Assembly: GCF_000373925.1 (NCBI RefSeq)
Contig: NZ_KB892707.1
Location: 62,001 to 126,000 of the forward strand
Direction: 5' to 3'
Source: Actinopolymorpha alba DSM 45243
Lineage (GTDB): Bacteria; Actinomycetota; Actinomycetes; Propionibacteriales; Actinopolymorphaceae
Length of the DNA: 64,000 nt
In this document: in pieces, positions 6,853 through 33,955 of the stretch
Layout: every line of letters starts with the position of its first letter
How positions within the stretch are numbered: the stretch's first letter is position 1
Made by a program: the position numbers and the translations under genes
The notes under the pieces: generated by a model
Seen by the model: only the letters and a program-made list of their open reading frames with translations
Told to the model about the DNA's origin: nothing
Databases searched by the model: none

Positions 6853-6976
6853 AGGTGTACGACATGTGAGACAGCCGTAACCTCACGCGGCATCTCCCTA
6901 CGAGGCGTGCCGAATTCACCGTGCATGGTGAGGATTTGGCGCGTGGGGTCCCAGCTGTCTCACATTTCGTACACCT
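6853..6976. repeat. 124-bp element bounded by 23-bp inverted repeats
   Basis: The left end AGGTGTACGACATGTGAGAC (continuing AGC, 6853-6875) is repeated in inverted orientation at 6954-6976 with one mismatch, 78 bp apart. The interior contains a smaller hairpin around TTCACCGTGCATGGTGA and no coding potential. Size and terminal inverted repeats resemble a miniature inverted-repeat element or a large transcribed hairpin downstream of nadC. No target-site duplication is evident, so mobility is unproven. Confidence 0.55.
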
Positions 6977-10223: not shown

Positions 10224-11425
10224 CCGACCACCCGCGTTCCGGCCACCACCACCTGCTCGATCGTCAAGGTGGGCTTGCCGGGTGACCAGCGGAACCGCAC
10301 GAGGTCGGCGGTCGCGCCGACCCTGAGCTCACCGCGCCCGCCACAGAACCTCCCGGGCGAGCCGCTCGCCAGCGCCACCGCTTCGGCGAGCGAGAACGGC
10401 CCGAGGTTGGCGACGTGCGCGACCCCGTCGCTGATCGGTCGGGCCGCGCCCGCGAGAAACGGCGTGCCCCGGTGGGAGAGTCTGCCGTCCTCGGAGAGTT
10501 CGACCTCTCCACCCACCGGCGTTTGGTAGATCCCGGGCGGTGACCCCGCGAGGGCGGTGGCGTCGGAGACGAGGAACGACCGGTTGAGCCCTTTGGCGCG
10601 CAGCATCGCTACGAGGGTGTCGGCTGGCAGGTGGTGGCCGTCAGCGATGAAGCCGGCGGACAGCCGGTCCTGCGCTAGCTGCGCCCAGATGTAGTGGGGA
10701 TGGCGCGGCAGGACGGCGTGAGCACCGTTTCCCAGATGCGTGCTGAGACTGGCGCCCGCTTCGGCGGCGGTTCTGATCTGATCAGGCGTGGCGTGCGTGT
10801 GGCCGACGGCAACCCGAACGCCGTGGGAGACCAGCGCCGCGATGTACGGCGTGCTGTCGGGGAAGTGGGGTGACATCGTCACCAGGCCGACCAGCCCGGC
10901 ACTGGATTCCTGCCAGCGAAGGAACTCCGCGACGTCCGGGGCACGCAGGTGTTCGGGCGGGTGCACACCACGCGGACCGTCCTCGGCTGACAGATGTGGG
11001 CCTTCCACATGTACGTAGGGGATCGCGTGGCGGACCAGCGGATCCGCGGCGCGAGCCCGTGCGATCCGGCGCAGGCAGGCCACGATGTGCGCCTCCGGCG
11101 CGGTGATCACCGTGGGAACGACGGTCGTGACGCCGACGCTCCACAGCGCCCGGACCAGCTTCGTGATGGTGTCGGTGTCGGCTTCGCTGTCTGAGGCGTT
11201 GACGTCGAAGCCGGCGAATCCGTTGACCTGCAGGTCGATCAGGCCGGGGGCAAGCCAGGTGTCAAGATCGCCTTGCGGTGTGGATGGATCCGGGTCGCCG
11301 TGCGGTGCGGGTTCAGCCAGGCGTACCTCGGCGATCAGCCCATCGCGTACGCGTACGACGAGCCGCTCGCCGGTCGCTGGGTCCTTTCCGGAGACGTCGA
11401 ACGCGCCAGATTCAGTCGAGCTCAC
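10220..11425 (-). CDS. nagA: N-acetylglucosamine-6-phosphate deacetylase
   Basis: Amidohydrolase that removes acetate from GlcNAc-6-phosphate to give glucosamine-6-phosphate for NagB. Metal and active-site landmarks are APGLIDLQVNGFAGFDVN, HVEGPHLS, VGHTHA, HLGNGAHAV, IADGHHL and VSDATALAG. The TIM-barrel enzyme is 401 residues. The GTG start at 11425 overlaps nagB by 14 bp; the end overlaps the ceramidase-like gene by ATGA. With nagB and the epimerase it would feed N-acetylated amino sugars into fructose-6-phosphate. No GlcNAc kinase is encoded here, so phosphorylation must rely on a gene elsewhere. Confidence 0.92.
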   Translation of the reverse strand: MSSTESGAFDVSGKDPATGERLVVRVRDGLIAEVRLAEPAPHGDPDPSTPQGDLDTWLAPGLIDLQVNGFAGFDVNASDSEADTDTITKLVRALWSVGVTTVVPTVITAPEAHIVACLRRIARARAADPLVRHAIPYVHVEGPHLSAEDGPRGVHPPEHLRAPDVAEFLRWQESSAGLVGLVTMSPHFPDSTPYIAALVSHGVRVAVGHTHATPDQIRTAAEAGASLSTHLGNGAHAVLPRHPHYIWAQLAQDRLSAGFIADGHHLPADTLVAMLRAKGLNRSFLVSDATALAGSPPGIYQTPVGGEVELSEDGRLSHRGTPFLAGAARPISDGVAHVANLGPFSLAEAVALASGSPGRFCGGRGELRVGATADLVRFRWSPGKPTLTIEQVVVAGTRVVG

Positions 11426-13519: not shown

Positions 13520-15050
13520 GGCGGGCCGCCTCCGTCCGGGTTCCGGTGTCGTCTGGCCCGACGTCGGTGGCGAGCTCCGCCACCAGAGCGTCGGAGTCCT
13601 GGTTGCGCCACGGACGGACGAACCCGGTGAGGACGAAGACCAGCAACGCGCACGCCACCGGCCCCGCGACCGTGAACGTCGGTCCCAGATTGCCACCGAG
13701 CCTGGCGATCGCGTCGGCGAACGCGTACTTCACGAGGACGAACACCACCAGACCCGTTGCCCACGAGGCGATCGCGGCGCTCGGCCCGCACCGCCGGAAC
13801 GCGGGCAACATCCCAAGCAGCATGGGAATCGCGATCGGCCCGACCAGTGCGCCAAACCACAAGATGATGAGGCCGAGCACGCCACCGAAGGAGTCCGCGG
13901 CGAGCGCGATGCCCATGGAGAGGGCGATGAAACAGAACACACTGAACCGCCCGGCGGCGAGTTCGGCGCGGCCGGTCATCTGCCGGGCGCCCTTCCAGAT
14001 CGCCGGGAGGATGTCGCGGAGCACCACGGCCGAGATCGCGTTCGCGTCAGAGGAGGTCATGGCCATTGTGTGCGCGAACATCCCGGCGAGGACCAGACCC
14101 ACCAGACCTTCGGGCAGAAGCTGCAACGTGACCAGGGCGTACGACTGCGAGGGATCGGCCAGGTCCGGCAGCAGCAACGGCGCCGCCCACATCGGAAAGA
14201 ACAACACCAGCGGCCAGATGAGATAGAGCCCGGCCGACAGGAGTGCGGCCCGGCGCGCCGACCGCGCGTCGGGTGCGGCGATGAACCGCTGCGCGAGGTT
14301 CCAGGTGCCGCCGTTGTACGAAAGTGTCGCGATCAACATGTACGCCAGGACGAACGCGACCGTGTAGTCGCCGTTGAACGCACGGGAATGGTCCGCGGGT
14401 AGCTGGTCCCAGATTCCCCAGACGGCGGGTATTCCACCGAGCTTCGCGAGTACGGCAACGAACAGCGTCGCCCCGGCGACCAGCTGGATCAGGAACTGCC
14501 CGAAGTCGGTGAGAGCATCCGCCCACAGGCCGCCGATCGTCGAGTAGATCAGCGTGACTCCGCCCGTCAGGAGAATGCCCCAGATCAGCGGCACTCCGGC
14601 GAAGATGTCGAGCAGGATTGCGGTCGCGGCCCACTTCGCGCCGACGTCGAAGACCTTGAGTGCGGTGCCGCTCCACGCAAGGAGCTGTTGCGTCGGCACG
14701 TTGTAGCGAGTCGAGAGGTACTCTAGTGGCGAGATGATCCCGAACCGTTGACGTAGCCGGGGCCAGCGGGGTGCGAACACCGCGGCACCCACGAGCATCG
14801 CGACGGTGATGGCCACCGCCCACCACACGTAGAGCGTGAAGCCGAACTCGTAGGCGACCGCGGCGTACCCCACGAAGACGGCCGCGCTGTAGCCCGACAT
14901 GTGGTGCGAGATTCCAGACAGCCACCAGGGCAGCCGTCCACCGGCGACGAAGAAGTCGCGCGCGTCGCGGATCCGTGCCTTGGCCCAGACTCCGATGCCG
15001 ACCATGACAACGAAGTAGGCCGCGAGTACGAGCCAGCCGAATGTGCCCAT
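13512..15050 (-). CDS. Sodium:solute symporter (SSS family)
   Basis: Integral membrane Na+-coupled importer of 512 residues with roughly 13 predicted hydrophobic helices. Family features include ARDFFVAGGRLPWWLSG, GYSAAVFVGY, PLEYLSTRYN, GGLWADALTDFGQF and MTSSDANAISAVVLRDI. I start it at the ATG at 15050, which has GGGAGGGCAG immediately upstream and gives a normal N-terminus (MGTFGWLVLAAYF); the longer reading adds 27 residues that fall across the LacI-type operator. As first gene of the epimerase-nagB-nagA operon it probably imports the amino sugar, possibly a sialic-acid-type or N-acetylhexosamine substrate (inference). Confidence 0.9.
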   Translation of the reverse strand: MGTFGWLVLAAYFVVMVGIGVWAKARIRDARDFFVAGGRLPWWLSGISHHMSGYSAAVFVGYAAVAYEFGFTLYVWWAVAITVAMLVGAAVFAPRWPRLRQRFGIISPLEYLSTRYNVPTQQLLAWSGTALKVFDVGAKWAATAILLDIFAGVPLIWGILLTGGVTLIYSTIGGLWADALTDFGQFLIQLVAGATLFVAVLAKLGGIPAVWGIWDQLPADHSRAFNGDYTVAFVLAYMLIATLSYNGGTWNLAQRFIAAPDARSARRAALLSAGLYLIWPLVLFFPMWAAPLLLPDLADPSQSYALVTLQLLPEGLVGLVLAGMFAHTMAMTSSDANAISAVVLRDILPAIWKGARQMTGRAELAAGRFSVFCFIALSMGIALAADSFGGVLGLIILWFGALVGPIAIPMLLGMLPAFRRCGPSAAIASWATGLVVFVLVKYAFADAIARLGGNLGPTFTVAGPVACALLVFVLTGFVRPWRNQDSDALVAELATDVGPDDTGTRTEAARHG

Positions 15051-15078: not shown

Positions 15079-15092
15079 TGCAACCGCTTGCA
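15079..15092. promoter_or_regulatory. LacI-type operator upstream of the symporter gene
   Basis: TGCAACCGCTTGCA is the near-palindromic centre typical of LacI/GalR operators (CG-centred, with CAA..TTG-like arms). It lies 29 bp upstream of the symporter start codon, so the divergent LacI-type protein at 15506 could repress this operon. Confidence 0.65.
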
Positions 15093-15291
15093 GGTCAACC
15101 GTTGGGTGGTCGCGGTTCCCGATCTGGTCATGACCTTGGCGCCGAGTGGCGGGTGGGCGGGTTTCGGGGCCTTGTCGTTCTGGTTAAACCTGGCGATGGG
15201 GCGTTCGGGGAGGGGTGGAGTCGCCAGCCTCGGGACGTCGCGAGCCGCGTCCGTTGCCGGGTCAGCAGTGGAGAGCTCCTGGTCCGTGCAC

Positions 15292-15303
15292 GCAACCGGT
15301 TGC
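15292..15303. promoter_or_regulatory. Second LacI-type operator, perfect palindrome
   Basis: GCAACCGGTTGC is a perfect 12-bp palindrome, flanked as TGCAC-GCAACCGGTTGC-AGG. Together with 15079-15092 it gives two operators 213 bp apart in the divergent region, a spacing compatible with DNA looping or with separate control of the two promoters. Confidence 0.65.
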
Positions 15304-15355
15304 AGGCCCTGGCCTGAGAATCGTCCAGCTCACCGTGAGGCACCGCTGTGTGAGG

Positions 15356-15451
15356 CCCCAAATGATCACGTATACGTGGTCAATGCATGCCTTGCATGGC
15401 ACCGACACCATGGGAAGCAGGCAATGACCACGTATACGTGATCATTTGGGG
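15356..15451. repeat. Palindrome-ended intergenic element, copy 1
   Basis: A 27-bp perfect inverted repeat (15356-15382 and 15425-15451) whose outer part reads CCCCAAATGATCAC followed by GTATACGTGGTCA. The core CACGTATACGTG is itself palindromic. About 49 bp of the right half (GGCACCGACACCATG through ATCATT) matches the copy at 33779-33864 with two mismatches. It lies between the LacI-type operators and the regulator gene, about 55 bp before that start. Confidence 0.75.
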
Positions 15452-15505
15452 GCTCAACCACGAGACCGGACGGGTCGGCGCGTGAGCGCGATCTAAGCTG
15501 CGTGT

Positions 15506-16588
15506 ATGCCAGAGACCGAGGCGCCGCGCGGCACACCCACCATTCGCGAGGTCGCCGACGCCGCTGGCGTGTCCCGGGCCACGGTGTCGAGGGCGTTCAG
15601 CCGACCCGAACTCCTGAAGCCGTCGACGGTCGAGCACGTGCAGGCGATTGCCGGACGCCTCGGCTACACCCCGAACGTCGCCGCGAGGGCCCTGTCCACC
15701 GGACGTTACGCGACCCTTGCCCTCGTCGTACCCGACATCGCCAACCCGTTCTTTCCGCCCCTGGTCCGCGGTGCGCAGCAGGCCGCCGACCAGGCTGGGT
15801 ACTGCGTTTTCCTCGGTGACTCCGACGAAAGTCCCGCACGCGAGGACGTCCTGCTGGGAAGGTTCGCCGGCCAGGTCGAGGGCATCGTCTCGGCGTCCTC
15901 CCGGCTGGCGGCCCAGGTCGTACGCCGGCACGCCGACCGCCGCCCCGTGGTGCTCGTGAACCGCGACATCAAAGGGATTCCGAGGGTGCTCATCGACACC
16001 GCGAGCGGGATCACGGCCGCCGTCGCTCATCTCGCCGAGCTGGGCCACCGCCGGATCGCCTACGTGAGCGGCCCGCAGACCTCCTGGTCCAACCAACAAC
16101 GCCGCCGCGCGATTCAGCGGGCCAGTTCGGCCAGCGGGCTCGAGTTGGTCACCGTCGCGGCCCGCCGGCCGACATACGACAGCGGCGTCGCCCGCGTGCT
16201 CGACCTGCTGGCGAGCGGTGTCACGGGCGTGGTGGCGTTCGACGACGTGGTGGCGCAGGGCATCCTGGCCGGTCTCGCGACCGCCGGTGTCAGCGTCCCC
16301 GATCAGCTCAGTGTCATCGGATGTGACGACGTGGTCGCCGCGACCACCTCGCCGCCGCTCACCACCGTCTCAGCGCGTACGGACGAGGCCGGAAGGTTCG
16401 CCGTCGAACTTCTCCTGCGGGTGCTCGGGAGTTCGGACGTACGCGACGCCCGCTACGTCCTCGACACCCGGCTCATCGTCCGCGCGACCACCGGGCCGGC
16501 AGCCAAGATTGCTTCACGATCAGCGAACAGAACCACCTCAGGGGGAGGCCGGGCGATGCAGGCCGGCCGGAAGATCTTTGGCAGCTGA
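15506..16588 (+). CDS. LacI/GalR-family transcriptional regulator
   Basis: DNA-binding repressor of 360 residues. The N-terminal HTH reads TIREVADAAGVSRATVSRAFS, followed by the hinge helix (TPNVAARALSTGR) and a periplasmic-binding-protein-like sugar domain (LALVVPDIANPFFPPLVRG, LAELGHRRIAYVSGP, VIGCDDV). It is divergent from the symporter-nag operon, and two matching operators lie in the gap, so it probably controls amino-sugar uptake with a sugar or sugar phosphate as inducer. Its last 51 bp overlap the convergent pgl gene, and the C-terminal tail (about 30 residues) is likely dispensable. Confidence 0.9.
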   Translation: MPETEAPRGTPTIREVADAAGVSRATVSRAFSRPELLKPSTVEHVQAIAGRLGYTPNVAARALSTGRYATLALVVPDIANPFFPPLVRGAQQAADQAGYCVFLGDSDESPAREDVLLGRFAGQVEGIVSASSRLAAQVVRRHADRRPVVLVNRDIKGIPRVLIDTASGITAAVAHLAELGHRRIAYVSGPQTSWSNQQRRRAIQRASSASGLELVTVAARRPTYDSGVARVLDLLASGVTGVVAFDDVVAQGILAGLATAGVSVPDQLSVIGCDDVVAATTSPPLTTVSARTDEAGRFAVELLLRVLGSSDVRDARYVLDTRLIVRATTGPAAKIASRSANRTTSGGGRAMQAGRKIFGS

Positions 16589-17320
16589 CCGGTCGAGCAG
16601 CCACAGCGTCCGCTGTTGCCCGTGCGCACCGGTCGCCGGGATCTGGACGGGCCCCGCGCCGGACAGCGCCAACCGGACCGCCCGGGCCTTCTCCTCGCCG
16701 GCAACCAGGAACCACACCTCGCGCGCGGCGTTGATCGCGGGGAACGTCAGACTGGTCCGAATCGGCGGCGGCTTCGGCGATCCGTGTACGCCGACCACCG
16801 TGCGCTCTTCTTCGTACACGGCCGGATGCTCGGGGAAGAGCGATGCGACGTGGCCGTCCGGACCGACACCGAGCATGAGGATGTCGAACGCCGGAACCGG
16901 CCCGTGGTCCTCGGGACGAACGGCCTTGGCGAGTTCCGCTGCGTAGCGTTCGGCGGCTGCCTCGACGTTGTCGCCGTCCGGACCATCGCTGGCGGCCATC
17001 GGGTGCATGCGCGCGGGGTCGGTGGGTACGTGGTCGAGAAGTGCTGCCCGCGCACCGGTTTCGTTGCGTTCCGGGTCACCGGCTGGGAGGAACCGCTCGT
17101 CACCCCACCAGACGTCAAGGTGCCGCCAGTCGATCGCGTCCCGGGCGGGGGACTCCGCGAGCGCGGCGAGTACTCCGGTCCCCACCCCGCCTCCAGTGAG
17201 GACGACCGAGGCGCTGCCTCGGCTCGCCTGGACGTCGACCAGACGGGTCACCAGGCGGGCCGCGACGGCCTGGGCCAGCAGGTCCTTGTTGGCGTGAACA
17301 ACGATTTCGGGCGCGCTCAT
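16538..17320 (-). CDS. pgl: 6-phosphogluconolactonase
   Basis: Hydrolyses 6-phosphogluconolactone to 6-phosphogluconate, the second oxidative pentose-phosphate step, immediately after Zwf. Family landmarks are VVLTGGGVGTGVL, DVWWGDERFLPAGDPERN, ILMLGVGPDGHVASLFP and FLVAGEEKARAV. The ATG at 17320 (MSAPEIVVHANK) gives 260 residues, as expected. It is the last gene of the tkt-tal-pgi-zwf-opcA-pgl operon. Unlike the other junctions from tal onward, it does not overlap its predecessor: a duplicated junction and a small ORF separate it from opcA. Confidence 0.94.
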   Translation of the reverse strand: MSAPEIVVHANKDLLAQAVAARLVTRLVDVQASRGSASVVLTGGGVGTGVLAALAESPARDAIDWRHLDVWWGDERFLPAGDPERNETGARAALLDHVPTDPARMHPMAASDGPDGDNVEAAAERYAAELAKAVRPEDHGPVPAFDILMLGVGPDGHVASLFPEHPAVYEEERTVVGVHGSPKPPPIRTSLTFPAINAAREVWFLVAGEEKARAVRLALSGAGPVQIPATGAHGQQRTLWLLDRSAAKDLPAGLHRPASP

Positions 17321-17422
17321 GCCCGTCCTCGCTTCGCTGCGGTCGCGCATGAGGCACTAATGGCGCTGTGTTGACTGATTCGCTCGCTGCGCTCGCTCAT
17401 GCCCGTCCTCGCTTCGCTGCGG
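17314..17422. repeat. 29-bp direct repeat at the opcA/pgl junction
   Basis: The same 29 bases, beginning CGCTCATGCCCGTCCTCGCT on the plus strand, occur at 17314-17342 and 17394-17422, 80 bp apart. One copy holds the pgl start, the other the opcA stop. This is best explained by a local duplication of an ancestral ATGA-overlapping junction. Confidence 0.85.
17317..17400 (-). CDS. 27-residue ORF coupled between opcA and pgl
   Basis: A short frame starting ATGAGCGAGCGCAGCGA at 17400, whose ATG overlaps the opcA stop (ATGA) and whose own TGA overlaps the pgl ATG (ATGA). Its last seven residues, AAKRGRA, repeat the exact C-terminus of OpcA. A 29-bp direct repeat (17314-17342 and 17394-17422) shows why: the opcA/pgl junction has been duplicated, leaving this spacer frame. 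It could let ribosomes travel from opcA to pgl by successive coupling. Whether the peptide has a function of its own is unknown. Confidence 0.4.
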   Translation of the reverse strand: MSERSERISQHSAISASCATAAKRGRA

Positions 17423-18530
17423 GCTTGCGGGCGCTGGATCGGCCAGCCGACCCGGCCGCGGCCTTGGTGGCTTTGCCTGAGCTCTTGACGCTCGATCTCC
17501 CGCCCGGCTCCGCGGTCGACTTCGTGGTGGAACCGCCGGTCGAGCTCGCGGCCGCCTTGGCGGTCGTGGTCTCGGCGGAAGTACTACGCGTGGGCGTCCG
17601 GGCCCGGCGTTGCCCGGACTCCCGCTCCAGCTTGCGAAGGAGTTCCTCCACCGTCTGCGCGTAGACGTCGTCCGGGTCGAGCCGGCGTAGCTCCTCAGCC
17701 AGGAGTTCGGAGGTGTCGCGGCGTTTCAGCGCGACGTTCCGCTCGGGTTGGCCGGGGATGGAGTACCTCGCGAGCAGGCCGTCGGGGCGGGTGATCGCGA
17801 TGTCGCCCGATTCGGTGTGCAGCCTGGTCGCGGTGATGCCGGGGCCCTTGCTGGCCTTGACCGTGGCGGGGATGCGCAGCTTTCGGGACAGCCAGGCGGC
17901 GATCAGGTCGGCGCTGGCGTTCGCGCGTTCGGCTTCGACTGTCGCACTCTGCACGGGTACGGGGTACTGATCGAGCGCGGCGGCCAGCAGGGCCCGCCAC
18001 GGAGTGGTCCGGGTCCAGGACAGGTCGGTGTCACCTGGGGCGTACCGGTGGCAGTGCGACTGCAGGGCAGTGAGGGGGCGCCGGTCGGACGCCGCGTCGG
18101 TGACCCGGCGCTGCGAGAGCTGTCCGAGCGGGTCCGCGGAGGGTTCGTCGGGTGCCTTGCCGGGCCACCAGGCCACGACCGGCGACTCGGGCAGCAGCAA
18201 CGGCATCACGACCGACTCGGCGTGCTTGGAGAGTTCGCCGTACAACCGCAGGAGGACGCTCTCACCGCCACCGCCCTCGCCGCCGACACGGACTTCCGCG
18301 TCGAGTCTCGGGGCGCCCCGACCCGCTCGGGGAATCACGCCGAGGATGCGGGACGGATGCTCCTTCGCCGCCTGCATGGCGGCCTTGAGCGCGTCGTAGT
18401 GGGTGCTTTCGTCGGCGACGACGATGAGGGTGAGCACCATGCCCATGGCCGGGCTGCCCGCGCTGCGGCGCGCCCTGACCAGTGCGGCCGCGATCTCACT
18501 CGCGGTCGTGTCAGACAGGTCGATGATCAC
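17397..18530 (-). CDS. opcA: Glucose-6-phosphate dehydrogenase assembly protein OpcA
   Basis: Activates or assembles Zwf in actinobacteria and cyanobacteria. The protein (377 residues) starts MIIDLSDTTASEIAAALVRAR. The family's central region is recognisable (LLLPESPVVAWWPG, DTDLSWTRTTPWRALLAAALDQ), and an Ala/Ser/Lys-rich tail of about 70 residues (repeated T-K-S-T-A/S-G-K-A type composition) ends AAKRGRA. The start overlaps zwf by ATGA, fitting a stoichiometric partner. The basic low-complexity tail is probably disordered. Confidence 0.93.
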   Translation of the reverse strand: MIIDLSDTTASEIAAALVRARRSAGSPAMGMVLTLIVVADESTHYDALKAAMQAAKEHPSRILGVIPRAGRGAPRLDAEVRVGGEGGGGESVLLRLYGELSKHAESVVMPLLLPESPVVAWWPGKAPDEPSADPLGQLSQRRVTDAASDRRPLTALQSHCHRYAPGDTDLSWTRTTPWRALLAAALDQYPVPVQSATVEAERANASADLIAAWLSRKLRIPATVKASKGPGITATRLHTESGDIAITRPDGLLARYSIPGQPERNVALKRRDTSELLAEELRRLDPDDVYAQTVEELLRKLERESGQRRARTPTRSTSAETTTAKAAASSTGGSTTKSTAEPGGRSSVKSSGKATKAAAGSAGRSSARKPAAKRGRA

Positions 18531-31912: not shown

Positions 31913-33715
31913 ATGCCCCAATCGTCCTCATCGGATTCCTACCGCGCCGCCAACACCAGCTCGTTCCAGGGGCGCGACGGCAGTTCCCACCGCACCAACT
32001 CCCGGCGCTCTGACTTCCGCCGCACCGAAACCCGCCGCACCAACCCGCGTCGCGGCGACGGTGGGTACACCGGTTCACGCAACGGCGAGTCCCGCGTCAC
32101 CGAGTTCCGCGGCCGCGAGTCCCGGAACGGCGAGTCCCGCAACGGCCAGTACCGGGACCGTGAATTCCGGAACGGCGAGTCGCGGGACCGTGAGTTCCGC
32201 AGTACGGACTCCCGGCGTACCGAGTCGCGGCGCGGCCAGTCGCGCCGTTCTGATCAGTTCCGCGGCCGTCCGCGGGAGCGTGGCGGCGCTCAGCAGCGGG
32301 AGCGGGCCATCGACCCCGCCAGCGTCCTCGAACGCGAACTCGAGGCTGCCCTCGACGCCGCCGCCGCGGTCGAGCCGGCCGACCTCCCGACCCAGTTCGC
32401 CGAAACCGGATTGCCCGCTCGCCTGGTGGAAGCCCTCGCCCGGCGCGGGATCGAGCAGCCCTTCCCGATCCAGGCGCGGACCCTGCCGGACGCGCTGGCC
32501 GGCCGGGATGTCCTCGGACGCGCGCAGACCGGCTCGGGCAAGACGCTGGGGTTCGGCCTGCCGATGCTCGCCCGCCTCGGTGGGGATTCCCGCGAGCCCG
32601 GCAAACCTCGTGGCCTTGTGCTGGTGCCCACCCGCGAACTCGCGCAACAGGTCGCGGACGCGCTGACACCGCTCGGGCGGCGGCTCGGCCTCGAACTCAC
32701 CACGGTGTACGGCGGTGCGTCGATGCGGCGCCAGGTGATGGCGCTGCGTGCGGGGGTCGACATCGTGGTCGCGACGCCGGGGCGCCTGATCGACCTCACC
32801 GAGCAGGGGGAGTGCGACCTGTCCGAGGTGAGCATCAGCGTCCTGGACGAAGCCGACTACATGGCCGACCTCGGGTTCCTGCCGGCGGTGACCCGGCTCC
32901 TCGACATGACGCCGACCGGTGGGCAGCGGCTGCTGTTCTCGGCCACCCTGGACCGGGGTGTGAGCCGGTTGGTGGATCGCTACCTGACGGATCCGGCGTT
33001 CCACGCCGTCGCCCCGGCGGCCGCGCCGGTCGAGTCGGTCGAACACCGCGTCTTCACCCTGAGCCCCGATGACAAGGTGGCGGTCGCAGCGGAGATCGCC
33101 TCGCGGCCCGGCCGCACCCTCTTCTTCGTACGCACCAAGCACGGCGCCGACCGGCTGGTCAAGCAACTCCACCAGGAAGGTATCGAGTCGGCCGCCATCC
33201 ACGGCAACCTCAAGCAGGGCGCCCGCCGTAAGGCGCTGGCTGGGTTCGCCTCCGGTGCGCCCAGGGTGCTCATCGCCACCGATGTCGCGGCACGCGGTAT
33301 CCACGTCGATGACGTCGACCTCGTGGTGCACTACGACCCGTCGGCTGATCACAAGGACTACCTCCACCGGTCGGGCCGGACGGCGCGGGCCGGCGCCAGC
33401 GGCACCGTGATCTCGTTGATCTTCCCCGACCAGTCCCGCGACGTGGCCAAGCTGCACAAGCTGGCGAAGGTCAGCGCGACCGTCGTCGAGGTGGCGCCGG
33501 GGCACGAGGCCGTCCGCGACGTGGCGGCCTCCGGCACGCCGATCGTCGTACGCCGTCCAGAGCCTCTGGAGGCCCGGCGCCAGAACGCGCGGCCCCGGCA
33601 GCGCGGCCAGCGCGCCGATCGCTTCGAGGGTGCCAAGCGTTCGTGGCGGCCCAAGCGCCCGAAGGGTGACCGCAGGCCGCGGCAGGAGGACGGCGCGCGT
33701 CGCCGGGCGTCCTAA
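31913..33715 (+). CDS. DEAD-box RNA helicase with repetitive Arg-rich N-terminus
   Basis: RhlE/CsdA-type ATP-dependent RNA helicase. The helicase core spans residues about 155-510: Q motif FPIQ, motif I AQTGSGKT (204-211), PTRELA, TPGR, DEAD (312-315), SAT (343-345), ATDVAARG and HRSGRTARAG. The first ~130 residues are low-complexity, built of short units such as NGESR, DREFR and RRTESR, and the last ~50 are Arg/Lys-rich (RPRQRGQRAD, RPKRPKGDRRPRQ). Both tails probably bind RNA and may promote phase separation. Roles in ribosome assembly or RNA decay, especially in the cold, are typical. ATG start; total 600 residues. Confidence 0.93.
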   Translation: MPQSSSSDSYRAANTSSFQGRDGSSHRTNSRRSDFRRTETRRTNPRRGDGGYTGSRNGESRVTEFRGRESRNGESRNGQYRDREFRNGESRDREFRSTDSRRTESRRGQSRRSDQFRGRPRERGGAQQRERAIDPASVLERELEAALDAAAAVEPADLPTQFAETGLPARLVEALARRGIEQPFPIQARTLPDALAGRDVLGRAQTGSGKTLGFGLPMLARLGGDSREPGKPRGLVLVPTRELAQQVADALTPLGRRLGLELTTVYGGASMRRQVMALRAGVDIVVATPGRLIDLTEQGECDLSEVSISVLDEADYMADLGFLPAVTRLLDMTPTGGQRLLFSATLDRGVSRLVDRYLTDPAFHAVAPAAAPVESVEHRVFTLSPDDKVAVAAEIASRPGRTLFFVRTKHGADRLVKQLHQEGIESAAIHGNLKQGARRKALAGFASGAPRVLIATDVAARGIHVDDVDLVVHYDPSADHKDYLHRSGRTARAGASGTVISLIFPDQSRDVAKLHKLAKVSATVVEVAPGHEAVRDVAASGTPIVVRRPEPLEARRQNARPRQRGQRADRFEGAKRSWRPKRPKGDRRPRQEDGARRRAS

Positions 33716-33778
33716 CGATTCTGGTCGGTTCCCGCTCCGTTCAAGCTGCCGCGATCTGCCGGCGCGAGGGCCGTTCCA

Positions 33779-33864
33779 AATGATCACGTATACGTGGCGC
33801 GTACCTGCTTCACCTGGCATCGACACCATGTGAAGCAGGCAATGACCACGTATACGTGATCATT
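33779..33864. repeat. Palindrome-ended intergenic element, copy 2
   Basis: Inverted repeats AATGATCACGTATACGTGG (33779-33797) and its complement (33846-33864) enclose an inner hairpin CCTGCTTCAC/GTGAAGCAGG (33804-33813 and 33830-33839). The right half is nearly identical to the copy at 15356-15451. It lies between the convergent helicase and ctaA genes. The surrounding 33716-33955 gap has no gene. Confidence 0.75.
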
Positions 33865-33955
33865 CAGGCCGCTGAGAGGCCCGCGTGACCGCCTACACGT
33901 CAGTCCGCGCCCAAAGCGCGGTAATCAGGCGTGGATGGTGATTCGCCGGGCGGGG

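Follow-up and report, generated by a model that had tools for sequence, protein, structure and literature searches.

A high-copy REPIN-like palindromic repeat in the genome of Actinopolymorpha alba

Described palindromic repeats and the element in the window

ERIC and other MITE-like palindromes of bacteria are imperfect, intergenic and about 100 bp long, and no mover is known for them; ERIC is not known to include end hairpins of 24 bp. The element described here resembles these repeats in being an intergenic imperfect palindrome of about 100 bp for which a mover has not been found.

REPINs, as presented in the part of PMC3116915 drawn on here, are REP doublets that form hairpins. The present element shares with that description a pair of short palindromic units that are inverted and highly conserved, a spacer of lower conservation in which length and hairpin-forming capacity matter, the existence of singlets as remnants, an extragenic location, a high copy number and the occurrence of several groups per genome. 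It differs from it in that no RAYT flanked by units was found and in having a unit that is an almost perfect palindrome; moreover, the doublets are called randomly distributed in extragenic space in that part of PMC3116915, whereas our element shows a strong bias towards gene 3' ends. The GTAG- and CGTC-tagged REPs treated in PMC3733652 are likewise high-copy short palindromic repeats, often found as dimers, some of them heterodimers, and the CGTC class is described there, in the portion used, as having no dedicated transposase, and none was found here either. In the same portion, GTAG REPs are named for Proteobacteria, Cyanobacteria, Chloroflexi and the PVC group, and CGTC REPs for Proteobacteria, Chlorobi, Bacteroidetes, Spirochaetes and Thermotogae; the word "Actinobacteria" has no occurrence in its main text. 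Unlike those REPs, the element carries neither tetranucleotide at the foot of its hairpins, either at the 92 outer ends of 46 pairs or at the 46 ends of 23 lone units, the inner unit edges being judged by eye. Because neither such a tag nor a RAYT flanked by units was found, the element is called here REPIN-like and not a REPIN. In the open-access library searched, no work was found that joins REPIN, RAYT and Actinobacteria, and no title or abstract opening among those listed describes such a family.

The window, a stretch of 64,000 nucleotides from Actinopolymorpha alba DSM 45243, contains two copies, located at 15356-15451 and 33779-33864, exactly where a previous sequence-only reading had placed a palindromic element; the core, CACGTATACGTG, is present in perfect form at 15367, 15429, 33785 and 33847. 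The element proper has 86 bp in both cases (15361-15446 and 33779-33864), copy 1 being stretched to its wider limits by five complementary bases per side. This palindrome is made up of two inverted 24-bp hairpin units (AATGAYCACGTATACGTGRTCATT), whose starts lie 62 bp apart, flanking a 38-bp hairpin spacer. In copy 1, the left unit (15361-15384, plus strand) has one mismatch to the consensus and the right unit (15423-15446, minus strand) none, the spacer (15385-15422) is an imperfect inverted repeat, and the terminal trinucleotide CCA (15358-15360), a subfamily tag, is partnered by TGG at the opposite end (15447-15449). In copy 2, the left unit (33779-33802, plus strand) has four mismatches, all of them at its inner edge, which is of the CGCGT type, and is followed by the spacer hairpin (33803-33840) and by a right unit without mismatches (33841-33864, minus strand); its ends are mixed, with CCA on the left (33776-33778) and CAG on the right. 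The right halves of both copies had been described as near-identical over about 49 bp; the near-identity holds, the measured length being 47 bp with 2 differences.

The RNA fold of copy 1 (15355-15452) reaches -69.4 kcal/mol (z -12.5) and that of copy 2 (33773-33870) -53.6 kcal/mol (z -9.0), and Rfam gives no match at gathering thresholds within the 64-kb window. Taken alone, the core is not striking in the window, where its four matches at up to 2 mismatches are to be compared with 1.48 expected, 7 of 100 shuffles reaching four, a marginal result; all four are exact and are paired 62 bp apart. Our ORF caller agrees with the settings that had been proposed: copy 1 occupies the gap upstream of a LacI-type gene, between divergent genes (a coding stretch ending at 15050 on the minus strand and the LacI-type gene starting at 15506 on the plus strand), and copy 2 lies between convergent genes ending at 33715 (plus) and 33956 (minus). 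The gap before the LacI-type gene also contains two GCAACCG.TTGCAG palindromes, at about 15080-15095 and 15290-15305, which we take to resemble LacI/GalR operators.

Copy number, conservation and location in the genome

When the genome carrying the window (G000; 7.98 Mb, 95.86% complete) is searched with the 17-mer ATGATCACGTATACGTG, allowing up to 2 mismatches, 207 matches are found on the forward strand and 205 on the reverse; the reversed control has none on either. Since the near-palindromic unit mostly counts once per strand, the total is taken as about 200. With a spaced pattern that allows up to 3 mismatches in the two cores together, 75 pairs at exactly 62 bp are obtained, and none with its control. 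The repeat family is real and high-copy; a whole-genome search for the core, as had been suggested in the sequence-only reading, thus excludes the possibility considered there that only the two window copies exist.

For a closer analysis, 60 stretches of this genome and the window were taken together (1.25 Mb), most of the stretches being centred on perfect matches, the first places among the matches listed, so that the sample leans to intact copies. It contains 128 units at up to 5 mismatches in 24 (reversed control, 0), which are distributed over 80 loci, 48 of them pairs and 32 singles. The spacing of the pairs is 62 bp in 46 of the 48, with one case of 27 bp and another of 70 bp; together with the folds of the window copies, this corresponds to the REPIN arrangement of two inverted units in one hairpin at a set spacing. 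Eight stretches picked without regard to copies (L104-L106 and L165-L169; 160 kb) contain five loci, that is, one per 32 kb, and extrapolation from these five indicates that the genome may have some 250 loci if diverged copies are included.

Conservation was analysed in 44 oriented copies of the main type, obtained from 47 after leaving out two of a variant type, F3, and one with an N. The outer 19+19 nt show on average 0.59 differences from the consensus, versus 6.5 for the inner 38 nt, so that, as in REPINs, the units are more conserved than the spacer and are accompanied by singlets. In the F3 copies, the spacer has a different sequence with its length unchanged. A profile of the spacer only, trained on copies identified by way of their units, was also used for searching and gave a list of 64 places, 45 of them known and 19 additional; 11 of these 19 score above 20 bits, each with at least one intact or nearly intact unit (8 bp further on in L073), and the remaining eight, below 13 bits, are other repeats, an F3 copy or chance matches.

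The arms of the spacer pair less than could be expected. In copies of this genome, 549 of 836 positions are paired, versus 603 for randomly dealt arms and 581 once the copies have been oriented, which counts against selection for a perfect hairpin within this genome. Selection against perfect palindromes was considered as the reason and set aside, the weak pairing being partly explained by an asymmetric consensus present in two orientations. For the residual deficit (549 versus 581), which none of 2000 shuffles matched, mis-oriented copies are a possible cause.

The single units are informative about their own origin. The combination T6/A19 appears in 12 of the 32 singles versus 1 of 92 paired units, and, after removing nine singles that keep the spacer on one side, in 10 of 23 (p 1.5e-7); a tenth spacer-keeping single, L089, sits among these 23 in all the lone-unit counts. 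Two of the spacer-keeping "singles" (L105, 7144; L080, 4436) are in fact pairs whose second unit has diverged. The T6/A19 hybrid is the product expected of a 62-bp deletion between paired units, and many singles would therefore derive from pairs through this loss.

With our own ORF caller (coding fraction 0.85), none of the 80 loci is genic; 34 are located between convergent genes, 40 between tandem genes and 6, including copy 1 of the window, between divergent genes, whereas 14.0, 42.3 and 23.7, respectively, are expected from the intergenic bases (p 9e-10; p 9e-8 if the number of gaps is used). In the tandem gaps, 34 of 40 elements are nearer the upstream stop codon, at a median of 41 bp from the stop, and in a few cases element and predicted stop codon overlap (distances -5 and -1). 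By fold and position, the element thus provides what an intrinsic terminator has, a stable hairpin shortly after stop codons. The extreme conservation of a dyad-symmetric 24-mer and a spacing fixed at 62 bp, or about six turns of the helix, might also suggest that the units are operators or nucleoid sites, bound by a protein specific for their sequence and palindromic by chance. Taking into account that copies are rare between divergent genes (6/80) and are placed after stop codons, and that what is shared are whole 86-bp elements, with related spacers and with terminal tags, more than operators would require, this reading is very improbable.

Ends of the element and the search for a mover

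Around the 46 pairs, direct repeats of 2-9 bp show no excess, so no target duplication is detected; at the 32 singles, the only excess is at length 4 (3/32), all three being the self-complementary CCGG. By contrast, the base triplets immediately flanking the element on its two sides complement each other in 20 of 46 pairs, compared with a mean of 5.3 after shuffling; for lone units, the corresponding figures are 13 of 23 and 3.4. Three trinucleotides, CCA, CTG and CGG, account for 85 of the 156 ends, and, in copies with both ends among them, 25 of 28 carry the same type on both sides (15/17 pairs and 10/11 lone units). When the spacer and five bases on each side are compared among the 15 tagged pairs, 8.7 differences in 48 are found within a type versus 12.1 between types, a separation not attained in 5000 permutations. 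The terminal trinucleotides track subfamilies and are therefore most likely inherited parts of the element. The complementary flanks had led us to consider insertion into the loops of existing terminators, which was discarded in view of this association of the outer three bases with subfamilies.

Longer complementary arms are present at loci L064 and L083. In the latter (10262-10311), the left unit is found inside a perfect 13-bp outer stem (CCGTGAGGCCGGT), which resembles the base of the terminator located at the orthologous place in the congener genome G003 (CGCGAGGCCGGT) and also the element's own spacer.

A classical MITE, that is, a DDE-type insertion sequence that has lost internal DNA and is mobilised, through its terminal inverted repeats, by the transposase of the parent element, would share several of these features. 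The long terminal inverted repeats, the short non-coding body, the high copy number and the patchy distribution fit it, and other MITE-like repeats of the same genome contain the unit. However, the lack of target duplication at the pairs, with only the three CCGG cases at the singles, does not, and no longer element with these ends, as an autonomous partner would be, was seen in the stretches examined, about 1.4 of 8 Mb of this genome. In addition, the spacer stays at 38 bp despite changes in sequence, both in the F3 copies and in five of six pairs of a related genome described below (G007), something that a deletion derivative need not do. A MITE origin is thus unlikely.

Several longer repeats were observed in this genome. 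One of them, F1 (L054, 6541-6682; L105, 8874-8970; L092, 1027-1203), ends with TTCAAAACTCC...GGAGTTTTGAA and has a unit or a pair in its middle; another, F2 (L086, 9798-10111; L079, 16744-17013; L048, 12245-12352), has ends like GGCGTGTCC.GTAGATC / GATCTACGGGACACGCC and includes one unit together with half of the 86-bp element. The MITE-like F4 (L091, 9029-9186), with ends GTCTCACATTGTGTACACC, contains an inner 38-bp hairpin that resembles the F3 spacer, and a 67-bp stretch of the window (6885-6951) matches it weakly, at 73%. A further dispersed repeat occupies 17311-17424 of the window, between pgl- and opcA-like genes, with more than 10 copies among the genome matches listed, at 86-95% identity and often in tandem at about 80 bp.

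The sequence-only reading had also pointed to a matching transposase as something to look for, and none was found with PF01797 in the A. alba genome or in a motif scan of 22 loci of G007, where no HUH-type frame was seen. PF01797 has nine matches at eight places. A comparison of five of these proteins with NCBIfam identifies three as IS200 transposases and gives no family for the other two; the three intact proteins of the IS200 class carry Y...Q, and no Y...NP protein was seen among these places, the motif being resolved in three of the eight. Units on both sides of the gene within 1.5 kb were found at 0 of the 8 places (two of them cut by contig ends), so that a cognate RAYT (Y1 HUH, Y...NP) flanked by units, as in REPINs, was not encountered in this genome; at one place (L040), a single unit lies about 1 kb downstream, possibly by chance. 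A RAYT may have been missed, because the genome is 95.86% complete and the PF01797 search covered it and not G007. The IS200 transposases themselves were rejected as movers, the hairpins near three of them being unlike the unit.

Hairpin units, a fixed spacer length and no target duplication would point most likely to an enzyme acting on single strands, as has been proposed for REPINs. We favour, with a probability of about 0.6, a high-copy, non-coding and non-autonomous REPIN-like element which would be copied in trans by an enzyme recognising the hairpin units, would survive mainly at gene 3' ends, where its hairpin should be harmless, and would act as a bidirectional terminator at some sites. 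The element is probably mobile. This agrees with the earlier reading of a non-autonomous mobile or REP-like element with no coding capacity, now supported by the high copy number, the intergenic position of all 80 loci analysed, the subfamilies, the coexistence of singlets and doublets and the absence from orthologous places of five congeners. Since REPINs are known together with RAYTs, a high-copy family of the same shape for which no RAYT was found raises the question of which enzyme copies it.

Relatives, sister family and native terminators

The 17-mer, at up to 1 mismatch, appears in none of 96 relatives, and its exact form has six scattered single matches in the genome collection, no more than expected by chance. 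Collections of phages and plasmids contain no match to copy 1 (98 bases), nor do viral contigs contain one to the 17-mer.

A covariance model built from 16 copies, with which the 150 best candidates per genome were scored, gives 47 matches at E <=0.001 and 104 at E <=0.05 (both strands counted) in G007, a genome of another genus of the same family, and none at E <=0.001 among the best 150 candidates of each of G001-G006, which include five congeners. G007 contains a diverged sister family whose unit is AATGAYCATGTTTACATGRTCATT. Its 22 loci (21 places) include six with two units, five of them at 62 bp and one at 63; at others, a single good unit is accompanied by a spacer whose second half has diverged. 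In ten consecutive 20-kb stretches of this genome, six units are present at up to 5 mismatches, and what lies between close copies are genes, as judged from the first residues of their translations. With a sister family in each of two genera and no copies found in the five congeners examined, a natural comparison is available.

In 21 aligned elements from both genera, 85.8% of cells are paired versus 81.8% after shuffling, 64 cells have changes on both sides versus 33.4, and the covariation score is 0.214 versus 0.145, values reached in none of 500 shuffles; pairs changed on both sides (15 versus 14.0) and further pair types (36 versus 35.5) are not above shuffling. If only the two unit hairpins are considered, the number of paired cells, that of cells changed on both sides and the score again exceed all shuffles, and pairs changed on both sides (3 versus 1.6) and further types (11 versus 12.4) are not clearly above them. 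The pair at position 9 is C-G in A. alba and mostly U-A in G007. Covariation across genera supports the hairpin without proving it, because the sequences are related and the structure was taken from them.

Orthologous places with both flanks were found in the congeners for copy 2 and for L091 (14888), L063 (6563), L059 (three), L050, L060, L064 and L083. Only one flank was matched for L091 (1411 and 7371), L063 (13016) and L067; for copy 1, no more than two of the five congeners have a match to the left flank, a different gene separating the flanks. Two scans of 35 congener loci each revealed no unit at up to 6 mismatches. The search for empty sites contemplated in the earlier reading is thus answered in part: the compared places have no unit, and base-exact empty sites are not definable because the intergenic DNA of the congeners is too diverged.

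At the site of copy 2, a hairpin of 17-20 bp is present in every one of the five congeners; in A. alba there is no hairpin of at least 8 bp besides the element. The hairpin of G003 at this site, which likewise begins with TGATCAT, was considered as a rival repeat family and discarded, as it occurs once (two arms) in that genome. At the sucD site (L083), four of five congeners have stems of 16-19 bp, and the fifth, without a perfect 7-bp stem, has a visibly similar imperfect one. The other orthologous sites (L050, L060, L064, L063, L091 and L059) have no stem above 8 bp in the gaps scanned, which were shorter than 900 bases. Within A. alba, other stems of at least 10 bp are present in 2 of 31 convergent gaps with the element versus 27 of 133 without it (p 0.11), and in 3 of 41 versus 29 of 629 tandem gaps, gaps above 600 bp being left out and those bearing the element being longer; the presence of the element is therefore not accompanied by significantly fewer other stems in convergent gaps, nor by fewer in tandem gaps.

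A role in termination is plausible and partly supported by these comparisons. It would be backed at two sites, copy 2 and sucD, because congeners have terminators at the same place, and most of the other sites checked have no strong congener terminator, leaving it unsupported there. The same two sites, the 3'-end location and the strong folds would also be explained by bidirectional terminators made by the host, maintained by selection, homogenised by gene conversion and never mobile. Yet structure would suffice for such terminators, and the 19-bp ends are nearly invariant in the 44 aligned copies; no copies were found in the five congeners, whose terminators at both sites differ in sequence, that of G003 occurring once in its genome, and 6 of 80 copies lie between divergent genes. 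This explanation is improbable, more so than a MITE origin, although less than the binding-site reading. Returning to the REPIN-like element, the 3'-end bias raises the question of whether a selfish repeat can replace terminators. It is tentatively conceivable, if doubtful, that this is a mobile bidirectional terminator, a REPIN-like lineage observed to date in two genera of one family, which would have been spread by a hairpin-recognising enzyme and would have replaced unrelated native terminators at some convergent gene pairs.

In L091 (1401-7410), a 6-kb stretch of the A. alba genome has a pair (1411) at one border and a single unit (7371) at the other, and the genes that flank this stretch adjoin each other in all five congeners.
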